In this document: piece by piece, positions 20,961 through 32,319 of the stretch | How positions within the stretch are numbered: the stretch's first letter is position 1 | Layout of the letters: each line of letters begins with the position of its first letter | DNA from: a virus | IMG/VR virus record: IMGVR_UViG_3300046804_000915 | Location: 1-32,319 of that record | Reading direction: 5' to 3' (one strand) | Length of the DNA: 32,319 nt | Notes under the pieces: model-generated | What the model saw: the letters and a program-made list of their open reading frames with translations, nothing else | The model's database searches: none | Told to the model about the DNA's origin: nothing | Program-made: the position numbers and the translations under genes

Positions 20961-22817
20961 TTATTCGTTTAGCAGGTTTTCTATCTTTTGTATTCTCTCT
21001 CCAATCCACCGCATCACAGGCACGGCCATTGAATTACCGCAAGCCTTGTACCTTGGCCCATCGGGGCATTGGTCGGCTTCCTTGTTGCGGTATGGAATCT
21101 TTGTCCAGTCATCGGGGAATCCTTGTAGGCGTTCGCATTCCTTTGGGGTCAGCCTTCGGATAGCCATAGGGGTTACATAATTATCTGAACCCGAATTAGA
21201 AGCTGTCAATGTTGGACTTGGAAAAGTTGAATCATAGATTCTATTTGTTGAATCATATTTGTTTTCTTCAATTATGAATTCAGTTATAGATTGGTCAAAT
21301 ATATTTGTTTCAATATGCAGTATTTCTTTTAATTGAAACCAATGCTCGGCACTTGGAATTGCGAATGAATCATCCTGTCTAAACCAATGCTCAATTTTTG
21401 TTTTGGGTAAATTCAGCAATTCCGATATTTTATTATTACTGATGTTTTTATGCTTTTTAAGACACCTTTTTAATGAATCAGTATCAACAGGATACTTTCT
21501 GACCAAAACATCTTTCTTGATTTCGTAAAAGGATTTTCTAAAATCAATTGAGTGCATCACCGCAGGGGTTTGACATCGTTGCAACTGCGTCTTTTCTTGC
21601 AGATTCATTCCTCTCATATCTCCACCTGATTGCCAATCAAAAGCCATCGGTTGCAACACGGCTCCAATATGCTCGGTGTCGGATTGTGAGCGAATGGTTT
21701 GCGTGGTGTGGTCGTTGGTGGTGTAATTGTAGGTGTCCACGGCTATCGGTTGCCCAACCAAATGGTCAGTTTCATTATATGGAGCCCATCCCGATGAACC
21801 CTGCATTTTTGCGGTTAATGTTGGGCAAGGCTCTTTGAAGGCTATCGGTTGGGCAATCGCTATGCCACCTTGATTCTTTGAAGGTTCAGGCGTTGTGGTG
21901 TCTAAGGTTTTAGCCACATCAACCGCTCTGCATCCGCTATTGGGATTGGATGATTTCATTGAGTTGGATGACAATGCATCAAACGAATAGGCTATCGGTT
22001 GGGCAACTGCGTGTGGCCCTTTCGCAACCAACGATGACATCGTTTCCCCTTCCTCAATCCTCGGCTCGTATTGTGCGTTCTCACCTTGGTTGAATGCCGC
22101 TCGGTCAATGATTACATTGAAACCATCTGCTCGGCTGTAATCATCACAAGTTGTTTGAAGGGTAGCTGCTATTTCGGATTGTTGGTTTCCTGCAAAGCTT
22201 GTTGCTCCAACGCTTCCTTCAGCATTGGCGGTAACTTCTTCCCTCTTTTTTCTGCTCGGTTTAGTATTCCCTTGCAGGCTTTCTCGCTCAAATAGAACCG
22301 CTGCGGCAACTCTCCAATCTCCAAGGTATCCGACAACAAACACTCTTCTACGTCTTTGGGCGACTCCGAAGTGTTGAGCGTCAAGAACTCGGTAGGCGAA
22401 CCCATACCCGAGTTCCCCCAACGCCCCGAGGAAGGTTCCAAAATCTTTTCCTCCGTTAGATGACAAGACCCCTGGAACATTTTCCCACACGACCCACTTG
22501 GGCTTGAATTTATCAGCGATTGAAAGAAAGGTAAGCATGAGGTTTCCTCGTGGGTCAGCAAGACCTTTGCGAAGTCCTGCAACGGAGAAGGATTGGCAAG
22601 GGGTTCCCCCCACGAGAAGGTCAATTGGTCGTTCATCTGCGATTGGGTTTTGGTTAATGGTTGTCATGTCGCCAAGGTTAGGGACATGAGGAAAACGATA
22701 CTTTAGGACTTCGGAAGGGAATTGCTCGATTTCGGAGAACCATTGCGGTTGCCATCCGAGGTCGTGCCAAGCAACCGAGGCTGCCTCGATGCCTGAACAT
22801 ACGGAACCGTACCTCAT
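20961..22817 (-). CDS. dcm: DNA (cytosine-5) methyltransferase
   Basis: This 618-residue protein should methylate cytosine in the phage DNA, probably against host restriction; no partner nuclease is seen. Motif I is VCSGIEAAS (6-14), motif IV GGTPCQSFSVAG with the catalytic Cys 74, motif VI WENVPG (111-116), motif VIII QRRRRVFVVG (154-163). The late motifs are RRLTPKECERLQGFPDDW and YKACGNSMAVPVM. The recognition region is long: residues about 200-420 contain several copies of a QPIAF/QPIAY-type phrase, and 420-545 are encoded by strikingly A/T-rich DNA (KNISNNKISELLNLPKTKIE). A second gene is nested in another frame at 22169-22636. It starts in an ATGA overlap. Confidence 0.88.
   Translation of the reverse strand: MRYGSVCSGIEAASVAWHDLGWQPQWFSEIEQFPSEVLKYRFPHVPNLGDMTTINQNPIADERPIDLLVGGTPCQSFSVAGLRKGLADPRGNLMLTFLSIADKFKPKWVVWENVPGVLSSNGGKDFGTFLGALGELGYGFAYRVLDAQHFGVAQRRRRVFVVGYLGDWRVAAAVLFERESLQGNTKPSRKKREEVTANAEGSVGATSFAGNQQSEIAATLQTTCDDYSRADGFNVIIDRAAFNQGENAQYEPRIEEGETMSSLVAKGPHAVAQPIAYSFDALSSNSMKSSNPNSGCRAVDVAKTLDTTTPEPSKNQGGIAIAQPIAFKEPCPTLTAKMQGSSGWAPYNETDHLVGQPIAVDTYNYTTNDHTTQTIRSQSDTEHIGAVLQPMAFDWQSGGDMRGMNLQEKTQLQRCQTPAVMHSIDFRKSFYEIKKDVLVRKYPVDTDSLKRCLKKHKNISNNKISELLNLPKTKIEHWFRQDDSFAIPSAEHWFQLKEILHIETNIFDQSITEFIIEENKYDSTNRIYDSTFPSPTLTASNSGSDNYVTPMAIRRLTPKECERLQGFPDDWTKIPYRNKEADQCPDGPRYKACGNSMAVPVMRWIGERIQKIENLLNE
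22169..22636 (-). CDS. Gene nested in the methyltransferase gene (overlapping frame)
   Basis: A 155-codon frame lies wholly inside the methyltransferase gene on the same strand in another frame. The product starts MNDQLTFSWGEPLANPSPLQ and includes GSPTEFLTLNTSESPKDVEE, LEIGELPQRFYLSEKACKGI and LNRAEKRGKKLPPMLKEALE. I recognise this TLNTSE...LSxKACxGILxRAEKRGKxLPPML pattern as a protein found beside or inside Dcm-type genes in other phages, which argues that it is expressed. Its function is unknown; a basic helical C-terminus suggests nucleic-acid or protein binding. It covers the segment coding for methyltransferase motifs IV to VIII. Confidence 0.6.
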   Translation of the reverse strand: MNDQLTFSWGEPLANPSPLQDFAKVLLTHEETSCLPFFQSLINSSPSGSCGKMFQGSCHLTEEKILEPSSGRWGNSGMGSPTEFLTLNTSESPKDVEECLLSDTLEIGELPQRFYLSEKACKGILNRAEKRGKKLPPMLKEALEQQALQETNNPK

Positions 22818-23002: not shown

Positions 23003-23332
23003 TTAGGAACATTCATCCAACATCCGTTGGAAATCCTCAACGCTTCGGATGACTACATACCTGTAGCCAACTGCCTCCACGACCCCCTGCCACCACTTTT
23101 GGGAGAGGGATTGCTTACCCTTTGGGGTTTTAAACTCAAGAAACACCGCACCCTTGGGCGATAGGTAGGTCATGTCAGCAACGCCAGCCGTCAGGCCAAT
23201 GTTTTTAAGGAAGTAACCGTTGGAACGGCTTCGGGGGTTGTTGTGGTTCAGGAATAGCAGACCCTGCTCGTTAGGTCGGAGCATTGCAAATAGCTTAACG
23301 CAGGCAGCCTGAAGGTTGTATTCTTCCATCAT
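23003..23332 (-). CDS. VRR-NUC domain nuclease
   Basis: This 109-residue protein is a minimal VRR-NUC (PD-(D/E)xK) nuclease. The core is GLTAGVADMTYLSPKGAVFL followed by EFKTPKGKQSLSQKWW, giving the D...ExK metal site and the trailing Q. The end (GYRYVVIRSVEDFQRML) matches the family's final strand and helix. Stand-alone VRR-NUC proteins are common in phage replication modules and are thought to cut branched DNA. The ATG overlaps the helicase stop. Confidence 0.82.
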   Translation of the reverse strand: MMEEYNLQAACVKLFAMLRPNEQGLLFLNHNNPRSRSNGYFLKNIGLTAGVADMTYLSPKGAVFLEFKTPKGKQSLSQKWWQGVVEAVGYRYVVIRSVEDFQRMLDECS

Positions 23333-24609
23333 ATTTTAGGGGGTGGAAATTCGTTGGCTTTGGTGAATGGTAGGTGGCACTGGATGTCAGCGGTACCAAG
23401 GGAACCATTGCGATTCTTGCGGACAATGACTTCCATAAGGTCGGCTTCCTTGCTCTTGTCATGCTCGTATGGTCGATAAACAAAAGCGATTTTGTCGGCA
23501 TCAAACTCAAGTTGCCCTGTTTCCCGAAGGTCGCTCATGATAGGGCGATGGTCTGCCCTGCCTTCGGTTGCACGGGATAGCGAAGAAACCACAACCCCGA
23601 ACACCTTCTGCCTCTTGCAGATGGTTTTCAATGTCTTGCTGATGTTGGTCATCTGCTCGATTTTAGGTTTCGGCTTGTCCATCTTGGTTGGCTCAATGAG
23701 TTGCAGGTAGTCGAGATAAAATCCGCAAACGCCGTACTTGGTTTTGAGTTTGGCGATTTCGCCTTCAATGCGGTCGAGGTTGGCTTGGTGCAGGTCAACG
23801 ATATACAGCGGCTTTGACTTAAGGAGGTCAGCCTTTTTCCCCAAGTCGAGAAATTGGTCGGAGGTGATTCGCTCGGTGGGGTTGAGGAAGTGCGACCCAT
23901 CCATCTCCGCAAGGTTAGAAAGCATCCGTTGGCTTAACTGGTCGGCACTCATCTCCATCGTGAAAAACACCACAGGAATGTCAGCCATCGCTTGGTTCAT
24001 GGCTATTTGCAGGGCAAGCAAGGTCTTACCCATCGCAGGGCGACCGCCCAGCAAAACGAACTCGGATGGCTTAAATCCTGTGAGCATACGGTCAAGCGGG
24101 CTGATGAAGGTGGGGTAAACCGAATCCTTGCGTCTGCCCTCCCTCACCTCGTTCATGTTCAGCAGGTACTCCTTGGCGAGTTCGTGTGCGGTTGTTTCCG
24201 ATGCGTTTGTTTCCACGGCTTGCATGGCTTGGTAGCGTGCAAAAGCTCTTGGGATGTCACGGTCAGCCGCAAGGTCGTCCATGATTTGCTGTTCCTCCCT
24301 TGCCTTCCACGCTTGGTTCAGGTCAGCGGCGTAGGTCTTCCAGTCCGAGGTGATAGTAATCCCATCGGCAAAGAATCCAAGGTCGAGGGTTACAAAGGCT
24401 TGATTGTTTTCAACCAGGTATTGGTGGAGGGTAACCAAGTCAACGGGTCGCTCCGCTCGGTGCAAGGCTTCGATGGCTCGGTATATGAACACGTTGTTTC
24501 CCGTGAACAGGCGTTCAGGGATTTGCATGAGGAAGGATGCTCGGTCAATGAAGGCATCCATCAGGCAGGACAAAAGCCTGCGTTCAGCGGTAGCGTGGTA
24601 GGTCTGCAT
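23329..24609 (-). CDS. Replicative DNA helicase, DnaB-like
   Basis: This 426-residue protein unwinds DNA at the phage fork. The N-terminal helical domain (residues 1 to about 110, ERRLLSCLMDAFIDRASFLM) matches DnaB-N. The RecA-like domain has Walker A at 188-196 (GGRPAMGKT), VVFFTMEMSADQLSQRML, Walker B near FYLDYLQLI, the ICKRQKVFGVVVSSLSRATE segment and the late MSDLRETGQLEFDADKIAFV motif typical of DnaB. It overlaps the initiator gene by 26 bases and the nuclease gene by four. Length is near that of bacterial DnaB. Confidence 0.9.
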   Translation of the reverse strand: MQTYHATAERRLLSCLMDAFIDRASFLMQIPERLFTGNNVFIYRAIEALHRAERPVDLVTLHQYLVENNQAFVTLDLGFFADGITITSDWKTYAADLNQAWKAREEQQIMDDLAADRDIPRAFARYQAMQAVETNASETTAHELAKEYLLNMNEVREGRRKDSVYPTFISPLDRMLTGFKPSEFVLLGGRPAMGKTLLALQIAMNQAMADIPVVFFTMEMSADQLSQRMLSNLAEMDGSHFLNPTERITSDQFLDLGKKADLLKSKPLYIVDLHQANLDRIEGEIAKLKTKYGVCGFYLDYLQLIEPTKMDKPKPKIEQMTNISKTLKTICKRQKVFGVVVSSLSRATEGRADHRPIMSDLRETGQLEFDADKIAFVYRPYEHDKSKEADLMEVIVRKNRNGSLGTADIQCHLPFTKANEFPPPKI

Positions 24610-25291
24610 CTTCGGATTGGTTTAGTAGTGGTCTTGCAAAGGTATTGGTGCGGACGATTGCCTCGTCTTCCCAACGAGCTTGATTGATGTAAGTTGCTGC
24701 ATGGGGAACGAACTGAACCTCGGTGTTGGCGTAGAGCCTTGCGATATTGGCGATGGCCTTCTGCTGATTCTCATCGGATAGCTTGGCGAAGGCTTTGGAT
24801 GCTAATTGCTTGGAGGTTTTGCGTGGATACAACGCCCAAAATTGGTCAAAAATCACACAATCTTTCTTCTCCCTCTTCTCTTCTCTCCTCTTCTCTTCTC
24901 TATTGAACACAGGTTCAACATAGGTTGAAGGTAGGTTCAACATAGGTTCAACCTTAGTTGGATTTTCTTCAACCTTAGTTGCCCTCCTTTCGGCACTCCT
25001 TTTGCCTGCTTCGGACATCTTGGTACGGTGCAGGTTTGCGTCTTCCCATTGAATGTCAAGGAATTTAATGAACACGGACGTTCCGTTGGTTTCAACAAGA
25101 TGAACCGCAAGTAACCGTTGCAGATGCCCATCGGCTTCCAGTTCTGCGTGTTCAATTGACATCTCGCATTCAGCGTTCCAATAGACGCAACAAAGTCGGA
25201 TGAAGGCCACCTGCACCTCGGCGGGTTGCCGTGAGATTCGACCCATCATCCAATCGGCTGGGCAGAACTTAAACCATGATATTTGCTTCAT
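24584..25291 (-). CDS. Replication initiator / helicase-loading protein candidate
   Basis: This 235-residue protein lies directly before the helicase. Residues 1 to about 90 (ISWFKFCPADWMMGRISRQP, VQVAFIRLCCVYWNAECEMS) look like a DUF1376-type or winged-helix initiator domain. A low-complexity charged linker follows (REEKRREEKREKKD). The C-terminal part (FDQFWALYPRKTSKQLASKA, VPHAATYINQARWEDE) matches the last domain of phage O-like replication proteins. The linker DNA holds 11-bp repeats (24900-24981) that look like an origin. The start codon lies four bases after the T run of a terminator at 25296-25331, so expression probably depends on read-through. Confidence 0.75.
   Translation of the reverse strand: MKQISWFKFCPADWMMGRISRQPAEVQVAFIRLCCVYWNAECEMSIEHAELEADGHLQRLLAVHLVETNGTSVFIKFLDIQWEDANLHRTKMSEAGKRSAERRATKVEENPTKVEPMLNLPSTYVEPVFNREEKRREEKREKKDCVIFDQFWALYPRKTSKQLASKAFAKLSDENQQKAIANIARLYANTEVQFVPHAATYINQARWEDEAIVRTNTFARPLLNQSEDADLPRYR
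24862..24981. repeat. Iteron-like repeats and pyrimidine tract: putative replication origin
   Basis: On the plus strand four 11-base units stand head to tail at 24911, 24922, 24933 and 24944, with consensus AGGTTCAACAT; the second is a weaker match (AGGTTGAAGGT). A degenerate fifth unit may precede them at 24900. A 13-base direct repeat (TCAACCTTAGTTG) at 24948 and 24969 overlaps their end with 21-base spacing. On the left is a tract of almost only C and T (24862-24900). Eleven is not a multiple of three, so the repeats fall in different codon phases and are not explained by protein repeats. The arrangement recalls lambda, where the origin lies inside the O gene. Confidence 0.65.
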
Positions 25292-25295
25292 GAGT

Positions 25296-25331
25296 AAAAA
25301 AAAAGCCCCAACTGGTAGAGGCAGTCGGGGC
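25296..25331 (-). terminator. Intrinsic terminator / attenuator before the initiator gene
   Basis: On the minus strand GCCCCGACTG and CAGTTGGGGC form a 10-bp stem (one G-T pair) with the 7-base loop CCTCTAC, followed by nine Ts. The T run ends four bases before the initiator ATG at 25291. Its loop is perfectly complementary to the loop of the upstream hairpin at 25360-25387. Confidence 0.85.
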
Positions 25332-25359
25332 AGGGTTAGACGGTACCCTTTTTCTAAAC

Positions 25360-25387
25360 GATTTGCTGACCTCTACTTCAGCAAATC
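25360..25387 (-). promoter_or_regulatory. Perfect 10-bp hairpin with loop complementary to the terminator loop
   Basis: GATTTGCTGA and TCAGCAAATC are perfect inverted repeats around the 8-base loop AGTAGAGG (minus strand). GTAGAGG pairs exactly with CCTCTAC in the terminator loop. Extending into both inner stems, CTG, GTAGAGG and CAG here can pair with CTGCCTCTACCAG there: 13 base pairs with two small bulges. Confidence 0.75.
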
Positions 25388-25397
25388 GCCTTTATTA

Positions 25398-25422
25398 CAA
25401 ATGTAAACTTCGGGCAAATTTA
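25398..25422 (-). promoter_or_regulatory. Two candidate -7 boxes before the structured leader
   Basis: On the minus strand TAAATTTG (25422-25415) and TACATTTG (25405-25398) both match TAnnTTTG, in the gap right after the stop of the nuclease/SSB-like gene. The second would place the RNA start a few bases before the first hairpin. A clear -33 TTG is not seen for either. Confidence 0.45.
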
Positions 25423-25424
25423 CA

Positions 25425-25673
25425 CTAAAACGGCAGGTCATCGCCATCTTTTTGTGGAGATGGTGCAGATTGCTGCTGGTCTTGAATTGGCTCGACCTTG
25501 CCTGACAAGAACTTCCTGCCTCCATTGGATGATTCCCGAATCCATGCGGAGAGCCGCATCTTGGTTCCATCGGGCATGATGATGTCGCCCTTGTAGTCAG
25601 GACGCTTGGGATTGTCGCCCTTGTCGTTGGCGAACAGGCTGAAGGTGTTGGGTTGGGGGATGTAGTTACTCAT
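25425..25673 (-). CDS. SSB-like protein from an internal start
   Basis: The ATG at 25671-25673 is preceded by CTTAAACCCCAACCCAAAAA and CC, the same type of leader as at 27932 and 27802. The 82-residue product has a short beta-rich core (DYKGDIIMPDGTKMRLSAWI, KFLSGKVEPI), a disordered Q/S/P stretch and the DGDDLPF tip. It may bind single-stranded DNA or the host SSB-interacting proteins. It is in frame with the longer ORF, so both forms could be made. Confidence 0.5.
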   Translation of the reverse strand: MSNYIPQPNTFSLFANDKGDNPKRPDYKGDIIMPDGTKMRLSAWIRESSNGGRKFLSGKVEPIQDQQQSAPSPQKDGDDLPF

Positions 25674-26063
25674 GGTTTTTGGGTTGGGGTTTAAGTAATT
25701 GAAAAAATCTTTAATGGGTACTAAATATCCGTTAGAGGTATAATCATCGCCTCCTGATACTATTCGATAGGATTCCATAAATGTAGTAATCCATGAAGTT
25801 GGAGCAATTAATAGTATTGGGTCAATTTTGAAAATATACCAGTCCGACTTTGTTGTAAGTATACCGCTTTTTTTGCCTCGACTTTCAAATTCTATAAATA
25901 CATTCCCTGTTTCTACGGTTTGATAATCATGCTTTATTTCAATAGCATCCGATTGACCTACAAGAGATTTCCCCAATTCGTGTAAAAAATCAGTAACAGC
26001 TTGCTCATGTTCAATCTCCTTATTTAACGCTATGTCAAAACGGTTGTCTTTACCTTTTTCCAT
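25425..26063 (-). CDS. Nuclease-like domain fused to an SSB-like protein
   Basis: The 212-residue frame joins two parts. Residues 1 to about 130 resemble a phage PD-(D/E)xK-type nuclease: SDAIEIKHDYQTVETGNVFI then EFESRGKKSGILTTKSDWYI. The last 82 residues (MSNYIPQPNTFSLFANDKGD to QKDGDDLPF) read as a separate small protein ending in DDLPF, like the acidic tip of bacterial SSB proteins. The nuclease part is clearly A/T-rich, unlike the rest of the operon. The join (NYLNPNPKT) is the translated form of the leader motif seen before other genes, so an ancestral intergenic leader seems to have become coding. One fused product, two products, or both are possible. Confidence 0.6.
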   Translation of the reverse strand: MEKGKDNRFDIALNKEIEHEQAVTDFLHELGKSLVGQSDAIEIKHDYQTVETGNVFIEFESRGKKSGILTTKSDWYIFKIDPILLIAPTSWITTFMESYRIVSGGDDYTSNGYLVPIKDFFNYLNPNPKTMSNYIPQPNTFSLFANDKGDNPKRPDYKGDIIMPDGTKMRLSAWIRESSNGGRKFLSGKVEPIQDQQQSAPSPQKDGDDLPF

Positions 26064-30498: not shown

Positions 30499-31796
30499 TA
30501 CGGCGTGGTGAGGGCGGCGAGTTGAGCGTTGGTCAGGCGAGTTGTGTAGAGGGCGGCGGCACGGATGCGGTCGTTGAGATTGCTACCTGCTAAACCTGTT
30601 TCTGAATTTCCAAGGAAAATGGCTGAACAAGCTGGAACCAAAGCAGATGTATCAGTACCGACTTGCGAGCCATTGATATAAAATGCGTAGTCGTTTTCTT
30701 TATATGCAACCGCAATTTTGAATATACCAGCAACTTGTGACGATGAATTAATGTCAACTTGTGATGCCGTAGAAACGGTCGCCAATAATCTTATTCTATT
30801 GGAGGTGTTAAATATAATTATGATTCTATTGTTGGACGTTCCATCGCTAAGTCCAATTAGCCTTGAAGGAGATGGGAAATTCCTCACATCCACCTCCGCA
30901 TAAATCGTTCCCTCCGTCTGCCCAATACTCCCGCTGACCGCTCCGCTGACCGAAACAACATCGGCGTTGCGGGTTATTGACCCTGTGGTGGTGGGGATGT
31001 AGGAGGTTGCAATGGAGCCTGTTTCGAGTTGTGCGCCCCAGATGTAAACCGTAGAACCACTTGCCGTAGATGGAAGACCAGCTGAGATTGTTGATGTAGC
31101 ACGAACTCCTATAATACTGGTAGCAGGCGTGTAAGATGCGGTAACAGTCATGTTACATCGATACCATCCGTTGCCGTAATTTTCGATGCTTGCTCTTGTA
31201 AGAGTAAACCCTGCGCCAACAGTTCCACTTGTACCTAATGCCCCTGTGTCAAGTCGAAATGCTTGACAAACGCCTGATGCATAGTTTGATGAAGTTCCAT
31301 CATTGACAGTTAAAGTAATACCACTTGTAAGGGCAAAGCTATCAGCTTTTGCAAATAAAGAGAATGTGTGCGTTGTTCCGCTGGTAATTGCCGCAATGGT
31401 TTGTCTTAATCTCCCTGCAACTGATGTTGCTTCAATTAGTGTTCCATTTGCATTGTTAAATGGTGATGTGAATCCAGATGTAATGTTTAAGTTATTTGCC
31501 GCCCAAGTCGTGACAAAGTTCTCACTCTGCAAAGCCAAATTCGACCCACTCGGCTCAACAAGCAACGCAGGACACCCGACCACCCCACCGCTGGCGAAGT
31601 AGTCCAAGCGAGGGATGCCCGATGCCACACTCTCAATCAACCCACTCGCATTCACACGGGTCGCAGTAGTCGCACGGGTTACATTGAAGTCGCCCGATGC
31701 ACCAAGCACCGTGCCTCCCGATGTGGTCGCAACAGGGGTGTAGAGTTTGCCTGTCTTAAAGCGTGCAGGAACAAGTATCAGCGATGGTGTCGGCAT
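30498..31796 (-). CDS. Tail adhesin with LamG/concanavalin-like domain
   Basis: The frame opens at 31838 but the ATG at 31794-31796 (MPTPSLILVPARFKTGKLYT) is supported by the second copy at 1-67. The 432-residue protein has an N-terminal part with FNVTRATTATRVNASGLIES and RLDYFASGGVVGCPALLVEP, likely for attachment to the tail, then a carbohydrate-binding-like domain (residues about 110-270), and a C-terminal LamG/concanavalin-type domain with FKIAVAYKENDYAFYINGSQ and RIRAAALYTTRLTNAQLAAL. It probably binds host surface glycans. Parts of the binding domains are more A/T-rich than the flanks, which fits module exchange. The allele at the left window edge differs. Confidence 0.7.
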   Translation of the reverse strand: MPTPSLILVPARFKTGKLYTPVATTSGGTVLGASGDFNVTRATTATRVNASGLIESVASGIPRLDYFASGGVVGCPALLVEPSGSNLALQSENFVTTWAANNLNITSGFTSPFNNANGTLIEATSVAGRLRQTIAAITSGTTHTFSLFAKADSFALTSGITLTVNDGTSSNYASGVCQAFRLDTGALGTSGTVGAGFTLTRASIENYGNGWYRCNMTVTASYTPATSIIGVRATSTISAGLPSTASGSTVYIWGAQLETGSIATSYIPTTTGSITRNADVVSVSGAVSGSIGQTEGTIYAEVDVRNFPSPSRLIGLSDGTSNNRIIIIFNTSNRIRLLATVSTASQVDINSSSQVAGIFKIAVAYKENDYAFYINGSQVGTDTSALVPACSAIFLGNSETGLAGSNLNDRIRAAALYTTRLTNAQLAALTTP

Positions 31797-31798
31797 TG

Positions 31799-31969
31799 TT
31801 AGAAGTTGTAGATTGCAGCAAAGCGATTGAACAGGCATCCATCCACGGCAGCCTCGGCAGCGGTCGCACCATCAGCCGTAGCCCTTGCGTTGAAGACACT
31901 CCATACCCCAGCAGCAATTCCTCCTTGCAGCATTGATGTCGGATAGCCGTAGCCGTAGCCGATTAGCAT
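31799..31969 (-). CDS. Small virion-associated protein, 56 aa (right allele)
   Basis: This is the homologue of the 57-residue gene at 70-243. It starts MLIGYGYGYPTSMLQGGIAA and ends GCLFNRFAAIYNF. The ends match the left copy and the middle differs by many residues and one deletion. The stop is two bases before the adhesin start and the ATG overlaps the stop of the gene before it (TAATG). The pattern of conserved ends and variable centre suggests a protein that contacts the variable adhesin (inference). Confidence 0.65.
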   Translation of the reverse strand: MLIGYGYGYPTSMLQGGIAAGVWSVFNARATADGATAAEAAVDGCLFNRFAAIYNF

Positions 31970-32244
31970 TACAGGAAGGTATAACCAATGACGGAACCTG
32001 CGCTTGGAGTAACGGCCGTAATCTTGCCGCCATTGCGACCGCTGATGACGATGCCAGCGGAAACGGATTTGCCGCTCAATGAGTAGGCAGTCAGCAGGTT
32101 CTCGCCACCTGTACCCGTCAAGGTCGTGAAGGTTGCAGCAGCGTTGACTACGATGAAGTCGAAGTTCGCACCGCTTACGGCTGCGTCAATGAATTGCATC
32201 GTACCACCTTGGCCGAGCATTTGTTGGAGAATTGGAGTAGGCAT
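31969..32244 (-). CDS. Small structural protein, 91 aa (right allele)
   Basis: This copy is identical to the product at 243-518 except for Met to Leu in AYSLSGKS and Val to Ala in TPSAGSV. Several additional silent base changes distinguish the two copies, so this is not a verbatim assembly duplication. Same leader and same TAATG junction to the 56-residue gene. Function not known. Confidence 0.6.
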   Translation of the reverse strand: MPTPILQQMLGQGGTMQFIDAAVSGANFDFIVVNAAATFTTLTGTGGENLLTAYSLSGKSVSAGIVISGRNGGKITAVTPSAGSVIGYTFL

Positions 32245-32275
32245 TTTGTATGGGTTGCTTTAGGGTAAATGTAAA

Positions 32276-32319
32276 TTAAGAGGGAATTTCACAAACGGAG
32301 TGGCTGTAGGGTATTTGGA
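32276..32319 (-). CDS. Tail terminator candidate, 3' end only (second copy)
   Basis: The last 14 codons of the gene at 550-1053 (FQIPYSHSVCEIPS and stop) are repeated here and cut by the window edge. This shows that the right end continues into the same gene order as the left end, supporting a circular map. Confidence 0.8.
   Translation of the reverse strand, partial: QIPYSHSVCEIPS

Follow-up and report, generated by a model that had tools for sequence, protein, structure and literature searches.

A predicted leader RNA with complementary, covarying loops ahead of replication genes in environmental phages

The c4 RNA of phages P1 and P7 and the CI RNA of satellite phage P4 serve lysogenic immunity in temperate phages, c4 by blocking translation and CI, after processing, by Rho-dependent termination. 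The P1 and P7 types differ in the pairing segments of c4. Kissing loops are known from ColE1, where the opposite-strand transcripts RNA I and RNA II act on the replication primer. In the immI operon of P1 and P7, c4 appears as the C4 antisense RNA (Citron and Schuster 1990, as referred to in PMC8198154 and PMC12197685). In plasmids pT181 and pIP501, the rep mRNA is attenuated by an antisense RNA from the opposite strand (PMC5703833).

We analysed a 32,319-nucleotide stretch of viral DNA (the window; positions 1 to 32,319 of IMG/VR record IMGVR_UViG_3300046804_000915) that carries a putative leader RNA with two complementary loops. In logic, c4 and P4 CI appear to be its closest counterparts. 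As in these systems, the pairing segments of a phage RNA lie in the operon of their own target and on the same strand, and the paired segments differ between types with complementarity kept, here in 22 classes. Pairing of c4 and CI lowers the expression of downstream genes, a likeness that rests here on the proposed attenuation. Unlike in c4 and CI, the target loop belongs to the intrinsic terminator, the genes serve replication and 22 codes exist. Moreover, a search of 14 long contigs found no tyrosine integrase and one of 12 contigs no resolvase, the contigs possibly being incomplete, so that no lysogenic context is evident for a role in prophage immunity. The element shares with ColE1 RNA I and RNA II the fully paired 7-nt loops of intact hairpins, whose sequence would set specificity and incompatibility, but it uses one strand and a terminator.

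On the minus strand of the window, the region leading from the SSB-like gene to the initiator gene contains two TAnnTTTG boxes, hairpin 1, hairpin 2, an intrinsic terminator and the initiator ATG, in this order. The box directly 5' of hairpin 1 (TACATTTG, 25398-25405), a Bacteroidota-type -7 box, is present where an earlier, sequence-only reading had placed it; the second is located upstream (25422-25415). Both are overlapped by the inverted repeat TGTAAATTT-N5-AAGTTTACA (25402-25424, not assigned to a strand), a possible operator, whose TGTAA...TTACA is in part retained among family 1 relatives. The RNA is predicted to begin at hairpin 1. The sequence-only reading described this as a perfect 10-bp hairpin at 25387-25360; the hairpin is real but longer, with a core of 11 bp (25388-25378 with 25369-25359) that RNAfold extends to 14 bp (25391-25356). 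The pairing part of its loop, GTAGAGG, occupies 25370-25376. The same reading recognised two hairpins, both of which we confirm, but missed a third between them: hairpin 2, which in folding has 5 bp (25349-25332), with AGGGT...ACCCT in the window class, and has conserved counterparts of different sequence in relatives (GGTCT/AGACC in L013, AAGTG/CACTT in L310). The terminator hairpin follows (25331-25305, 10 bp, stem conserved across loop classes). Its loop CCTCTAC (25321-25315) is, as had been claimed, exactly complementary to the loop of hairpin 1. A run of nine T (25304-25296) marks the predicted 3' end of a leader RNA of approximately 96 nt and stops 4 nt before the ATG at 25291, in agreement with the intrinsic terminator proposed earlier for this position. 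The leader folds with -43.5 kcal/mol (z = -5.5), and none of 200 shuffled sequences is equally stable. Three hairpins in identical order are found in the fold of every representative. In the L002 element, hairpin 2 has grown to about 55 nt and the loop match is kept, indicating a variable linker length.

The first gene behind the element encodes the replication initiator (24584-25291, minus strand; PHROG primosomal / replication initiation protein) and is followed in the replication operon by a DnaB-like helicase gene (23329-24609, minus strand). The upstream neighbour is an SSB-like protein (25425-25673, minus strand), which constitutes the C-terminal part of a 212-aa ORF (25425-26063) and which some relatives, L010 and L013 among them, encode as an ORF of its own. 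Among relatives, the first downstream gene encodes RepO/primosomal-type initiators, DUF6291 proteins, VapE/BT4734-type primases, a ParB-like/methyltransferase protein or a DUF3223 protein. In L009 and L010 other genes displace the initiator, and the element is still found 3' of the SSB gene. The element thus appears tied to the promoter position of the replication operon and not to one protein. Control of the initiator, as suggested from the window, fits the position of the element in front of a replication gene, but the element is not specific to this initiator.

In approximately 170 non-identical relatives both loops have diverged and their complementarity is kept over 6–10 bp. A complementarity filter was used in collecting the later set of 172 regions; the unbiased count of loop matches therefore comes from a scan with the terminator stem alone, which yielded 73 different elements, 71 of them true and 2 unrelated terminators. 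An exact complement of at least 7 nt to the element's own terminator loop is present upstream in 70 of the 71 true elements, somewhat further upstream in L002 than in the others. Loops of another class were matched in 3 of 949 tests and shuffled upstream sequences in 40 of 1,460, which bears out the earlier estimate that the loop match exceeds chance. The test that the sequence-only reading had set for its own refutation, unpaired loop changes or a missing first hairpin among relatives, also came out in favour of the idea. The single exception, L117, combines the hairpin of one class with the terminator of another; L249, which turned up later, carries one loop mismatch caused by one changed base. 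L117, which looks like a hybrid of two classes, and L249 are either natural intermediates or assembly chimeras.

Covariation was assessed in two alignments, with 18 sequences of family 1 and 12 of family 2. The seven loop-loop positions are paired at 98.4% and 100%, with double-sided changes in 5/7 and 6/7 of them, respectively. The covariation scores of 0.665 (family 1) and 0.719 (family 2), against 0.225 and 0.184, are reached by none of 500 shuffles, and shifting the partner segment abolishes the signal. The terminator stem is almost invariant in these alignments; hairpin 1 is variable and contains compensatory changes. A family 2 covariance model built with the window left out recovers the window element (46.7 bits) and L310 (24.9 bits). 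The modelled loop duplexes of 20 classes average -9.0 kcal/mol for cognate and -2.5 kcal/mol for non-cognate pairs; the cognate pair is the best, or within 0.1 kcal/mol of the best, in all 20 classes, and a few class pairs cross-react by this measure. The covariation shows that the loops base-pair, a signal compatible with pairing in cis or in trans. Together with the fold, it supports the structured leader starting at hairpin 1, with true loop-loop pairing, that had been suspected from the window. The further suggestion that complementarity reaches 13 pairs by entering both inner stems (CTG/CAG) holds for the window class only: other classes pair in the loops and at most 1–2 bases beyond. Since the stem extension is not conserved and pairing is essentially confined to the loops, an antiterminator switch that breaks the terminator stem finds no backing. 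The 7-nt terminator loop of most classes has a nearly constant C at position 1 and A at position 6, opposite G and U in loop 1, while the other positions vary freely; this may reflect a structural requirement of the kissing complex.

The initiator protein, used as a query, retrieved about 40 viral contigs with readable upstream regions. In total, the elements comprise 22 terminator-loop sequences, at least three architectures and at least five kinds of first gene. In the contigs retrieved with the initiator, both loops depart from those of the window and are matched with each other, as CTGGAAT/ATTCCAG, CCTGAAT/ATTCAGG, CTGCGAC/GTCGCAG, CTGCAAT/ATTGCAG, CTGCTAT/ATAGCAG, CCGGAA/TTCCGG and CCGTAAT/ATTACGG. 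The second family shares the terminator stem with the window and has a different middle part (GACGTAAGCAAAGCC...), promoter sequence and set of loops, each of them matched: CTACGAC, CCTTCGAC, CCTGCGAA, CACCAC, CTGGTAT, CTGGTACC, TCTGCTAC, AGTGCGAA and CCTCCTAC. The third architecture is built on a different terminator, GCCCCCC-TT-TCG-loop-CGA-CT-GGGGGGC, with the matched loops CTGCTAC (L310, L313) and CTCTTAC (L352, L356). L013 has a further distinct set of stems around the middle hairpin described above, and its loop CCTCACA is matched by TGTGAGG; the loop pairs of L010 and L317 are CCTCAAT/ATTGAGG and CCGCAA/TTGCGG. In L309 and L312, approximately 250-40 nt 5' of a primase gene, the loop ATTGGAACC or ATTCGAACC finds its match GGTTCCA or GGTTCGA in a larger terminator-like hairpin. 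The two differ by a single covarying pair (GGAACC/GGTTCC versus CGAACC/GGTTCG) and are a candidate fourth architecture.

When loop class is mapped by parsimony onto gene phylogenies, about 51 changes are required in all. They number 14 in 35 initiators (shuffled mean 22.5), 12 in 24 primases of one type (12.0) and 8 in 18 DUF6291 genes (10.8); other gene groups show 10 in 18 (11.7), 5 in 9 (5.8) and 2 in 20 (2.0). On these trees, the association of loop class with the downstream gene is loose. Different classes are found in 13 of 37 pairs whose downstream 700 nt are at least 99% identical. The element is exchanged between L131 and L140, with both flanks approximately 99% identical, and L251 and L171 differ in hairpin 1 and in the terminator loop and have the middle in common. 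In the sequences compared, the two loops of a pair almost always switch together. Several classes can occur in one metagenome, as in sample 3300020043 with CTGGAAT, CTGCTAT, CTGCAAT, CCGGAA, TCTGCTAC and CCTGCGAA.

Outside these viral contigs, our searches gave no relative of the element. No Rfam 15 family scores above its gathering threshold (the best sub-threshold match is Spot 42, 26.8 versus 80 bits), consistent with the earlier remark that no known RNA family could be recognised. Blastn of the element against 50,697 phage records and 72,556 plasmids gave no match, and a search with 12 kb of the window found no close relative among phages. Scanning cellular genomes with the terminator pattern retrieved ordinary terminators only; in about 40 cellular terminators that share the stem core such a hairpin is absent, the exceptions being an isolated 8-nt match (L234) and matches of 6 nt. 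The covariance model produced one weak match in 296 Bacteroidota genomes (L369), without loop complementarity. No kissing element is present in the distant initiator relatives L056-L081, no clear element in the sequence of the isolated relative phi46:1, and no room for one 5' of the primase in the annotation of further isolated relatives, P12024L/S and the Flavobacterium phages mumin9-1 and snusmum6-1. Within the window, other sites complementary to the loops are scattered 7-mers inside genes, none of them extended. The open-access literature library that we searched yielded no description of the element.

Relatives of the window's terminase are found in Flavobacterium phages (51% identity) and relatives of its portal protein in Nonlabens phages; together with the promoter box, they point to Bacteroidota hosts. 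Judging from gene content, a lytic or non-integrating lifestyle is likely, with which plasmid-like lysogeny is compatible. Several other features of the window were noted. The contig ends (18-593 and approximately 31747-32319) carry stretches of about 578 bp that are 84% identical and contain near-identical 91-aa ORFs; probably, these represent repeated domains of tail proteins and not a terminal repeat. Between its conserved blocks, the DNA cytosine methyltransferase encoded at 20961-22817 contains a long insert. Inside this gene, in another frame of the same strand, a 155-aa ORF (22169-22636, minus strand) reads like a real phage protein and is possibly an overlapping gene.

We propose that the three-hairpin leader, consisting of hairpin 1, hairpin 2 and the terminator, controls the phage replication operon through premature termination. 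Judging from the anatomy, most transcripts would end at the terminator and release the RNA of about 96 nt, whose loops could kiss those of other copies in trans. The pool of leader RNA would then report the number of genomes of the same loop class and set the read-through into the replication genes. In one version, loop 1 of the nascent RNA captures the terminator-loop sequence before the 3' arm of the terminator is made, resulting in read-through; leader RNA acting in trans would block loop 1 and restore termination. The loop sequence would thereby serve as a self/non-self or incompatibility code among related phages. Such self-specific attenuation, in which the leader kisses the loops of sister transcripts and provides an incompatibility code for replication genes, has in our estimate an even chance of being correct. 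We lean towards action in trans because the diversity of codes has no evident reason in cis, the released leader is a natural diffusible product and rough geometry points the same way. With hairpin 2 folded, most classes by this geometry cannot, or can only just, bridge the distance for kissing in cis (64 Å in the window, where 75-87 Å are needed; 45 versus 73-84 Å in L310), which mildly favours trans.

A switch acting only in cis, in which the loops of one RNA would pair during transcription and alter the strength or timing of the terminator while loop sequences drift through recombination and compensatory change without any identity meaning, is the main rival and a serious possibility, if not one that we expect to be right. 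The covariation would be explained without a second molecule, and the high local concentration favours pairing in cis whenever hairpin 2 opens. The reach then increases to 113-189 Å, so that linkers of 17-29 nt suffice, and in L094, L160 and L013 the rough geometry permits contact even with hairpin 2 folded. Concerted exchange within one cassette of about 100 nt would account for the switching, and ordinary mosaic recombination among near-identical phages could generate it with no selection for codes. However, a purely cis-acting switch offers no obvious reason for 22 classes and so many switches among close relatives; hairpin 2, kept with different sequences, shortens the linker and strains kissing in most classes, and the terminator stem is not invaded by the pairing. 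That the loop match is an artefact, either a 7-mer that matches by chance in a single genome or a repeat at the DNA level without an RNA role, deserves practically no credence: a lone 7-nt match would be weak evidence, but the covariation and the match to the own loop across the stem-only scan contradict it, as do the cellular terminators that share the stem core and, bar isolated short matches, have no such hairpin.

The strained cis contact in most classes, together with the fact that one small phage RNA carries both complementary loops, would also suit self-assembly, with loop 1 kissing loop 2 of the next copy and the resulting dimers, rings or chains playing a structural role at the replication origin, similar to phi29 pRNA. 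Phage and bacterial RNAs such as phi29 pRNA and GOLLD, ROOL and OLE have loop-loop contacts between identical copies that are kept by covariation (PMC12286853), kissing-loop homo-oligomers of GOLLD and ROOL among them, and the present loops are likewise able to pair between copies. We consider this arrangement improbable. A strong terminator closes the element immediately in front of a gene, in a replication operon, and the phage has an ordinary Terminase_3 large terminase for packaging, whereas pRNA serves DNA packaging; GOLLD and ROOL form cages from hundreds of nucleotides, unlike the short leader described here. To our knowledge, no protein partner is known for such an assembly. Conventional antisense attenuation, with an opposite-strand RNA governing the leader, is less probable still. 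It would share with pT181 and pIP501 the leader terminator just 5' of a replication gene, as well as the logic of copy control and incompatibility (PMC5703833), but the antisense RNA of these plasmids is automatically complementary, whereas both partners of the present pair are encoded on one strand and must co-evolve. Of 169 related elements, 168 have a TAnnTTT[GA] box upstream on their own strand, extending the earlier observation in the window, and just 6 have an opposite-strand TAnnTTTG box in the 300 nt downstream; there is no regular opposite-strand promoter, which argues against such an antisense RNA. The downstream genes are, moreover, wholly different between phages, and the loops stay matched within one strand.

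The element appears to represent an undescribed and widespread family of regulatory RNAs in environmental Bacteroidota phages. Its loop-loop evidence is unusually clean, with many compensatory switches in otherwise near-identical genomes. If self-specific attenuation does operate in trans, the phages possess a naturally occurring repertoire of 22 or more loop pairs, most of them distinguishable by modelled energy, which could explain how related phages discriminate self from non-self inside a cell. We tentatively suggest, as a somewhat unlikely extension, that the leader is an RNA barcode in phages with no detected integrase, each of them bearing one of at least 22 loop codes, and that it acts by recognising only transcripts of the same code and limiting the replication of same-code genomes per cell. 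If true, this would be a form of RNA incompatibility, or kin discrimination, in which both halves of the lock are located on one strand and are switched together. The loop code makes clear predictions for co-infection and for transcription termination.
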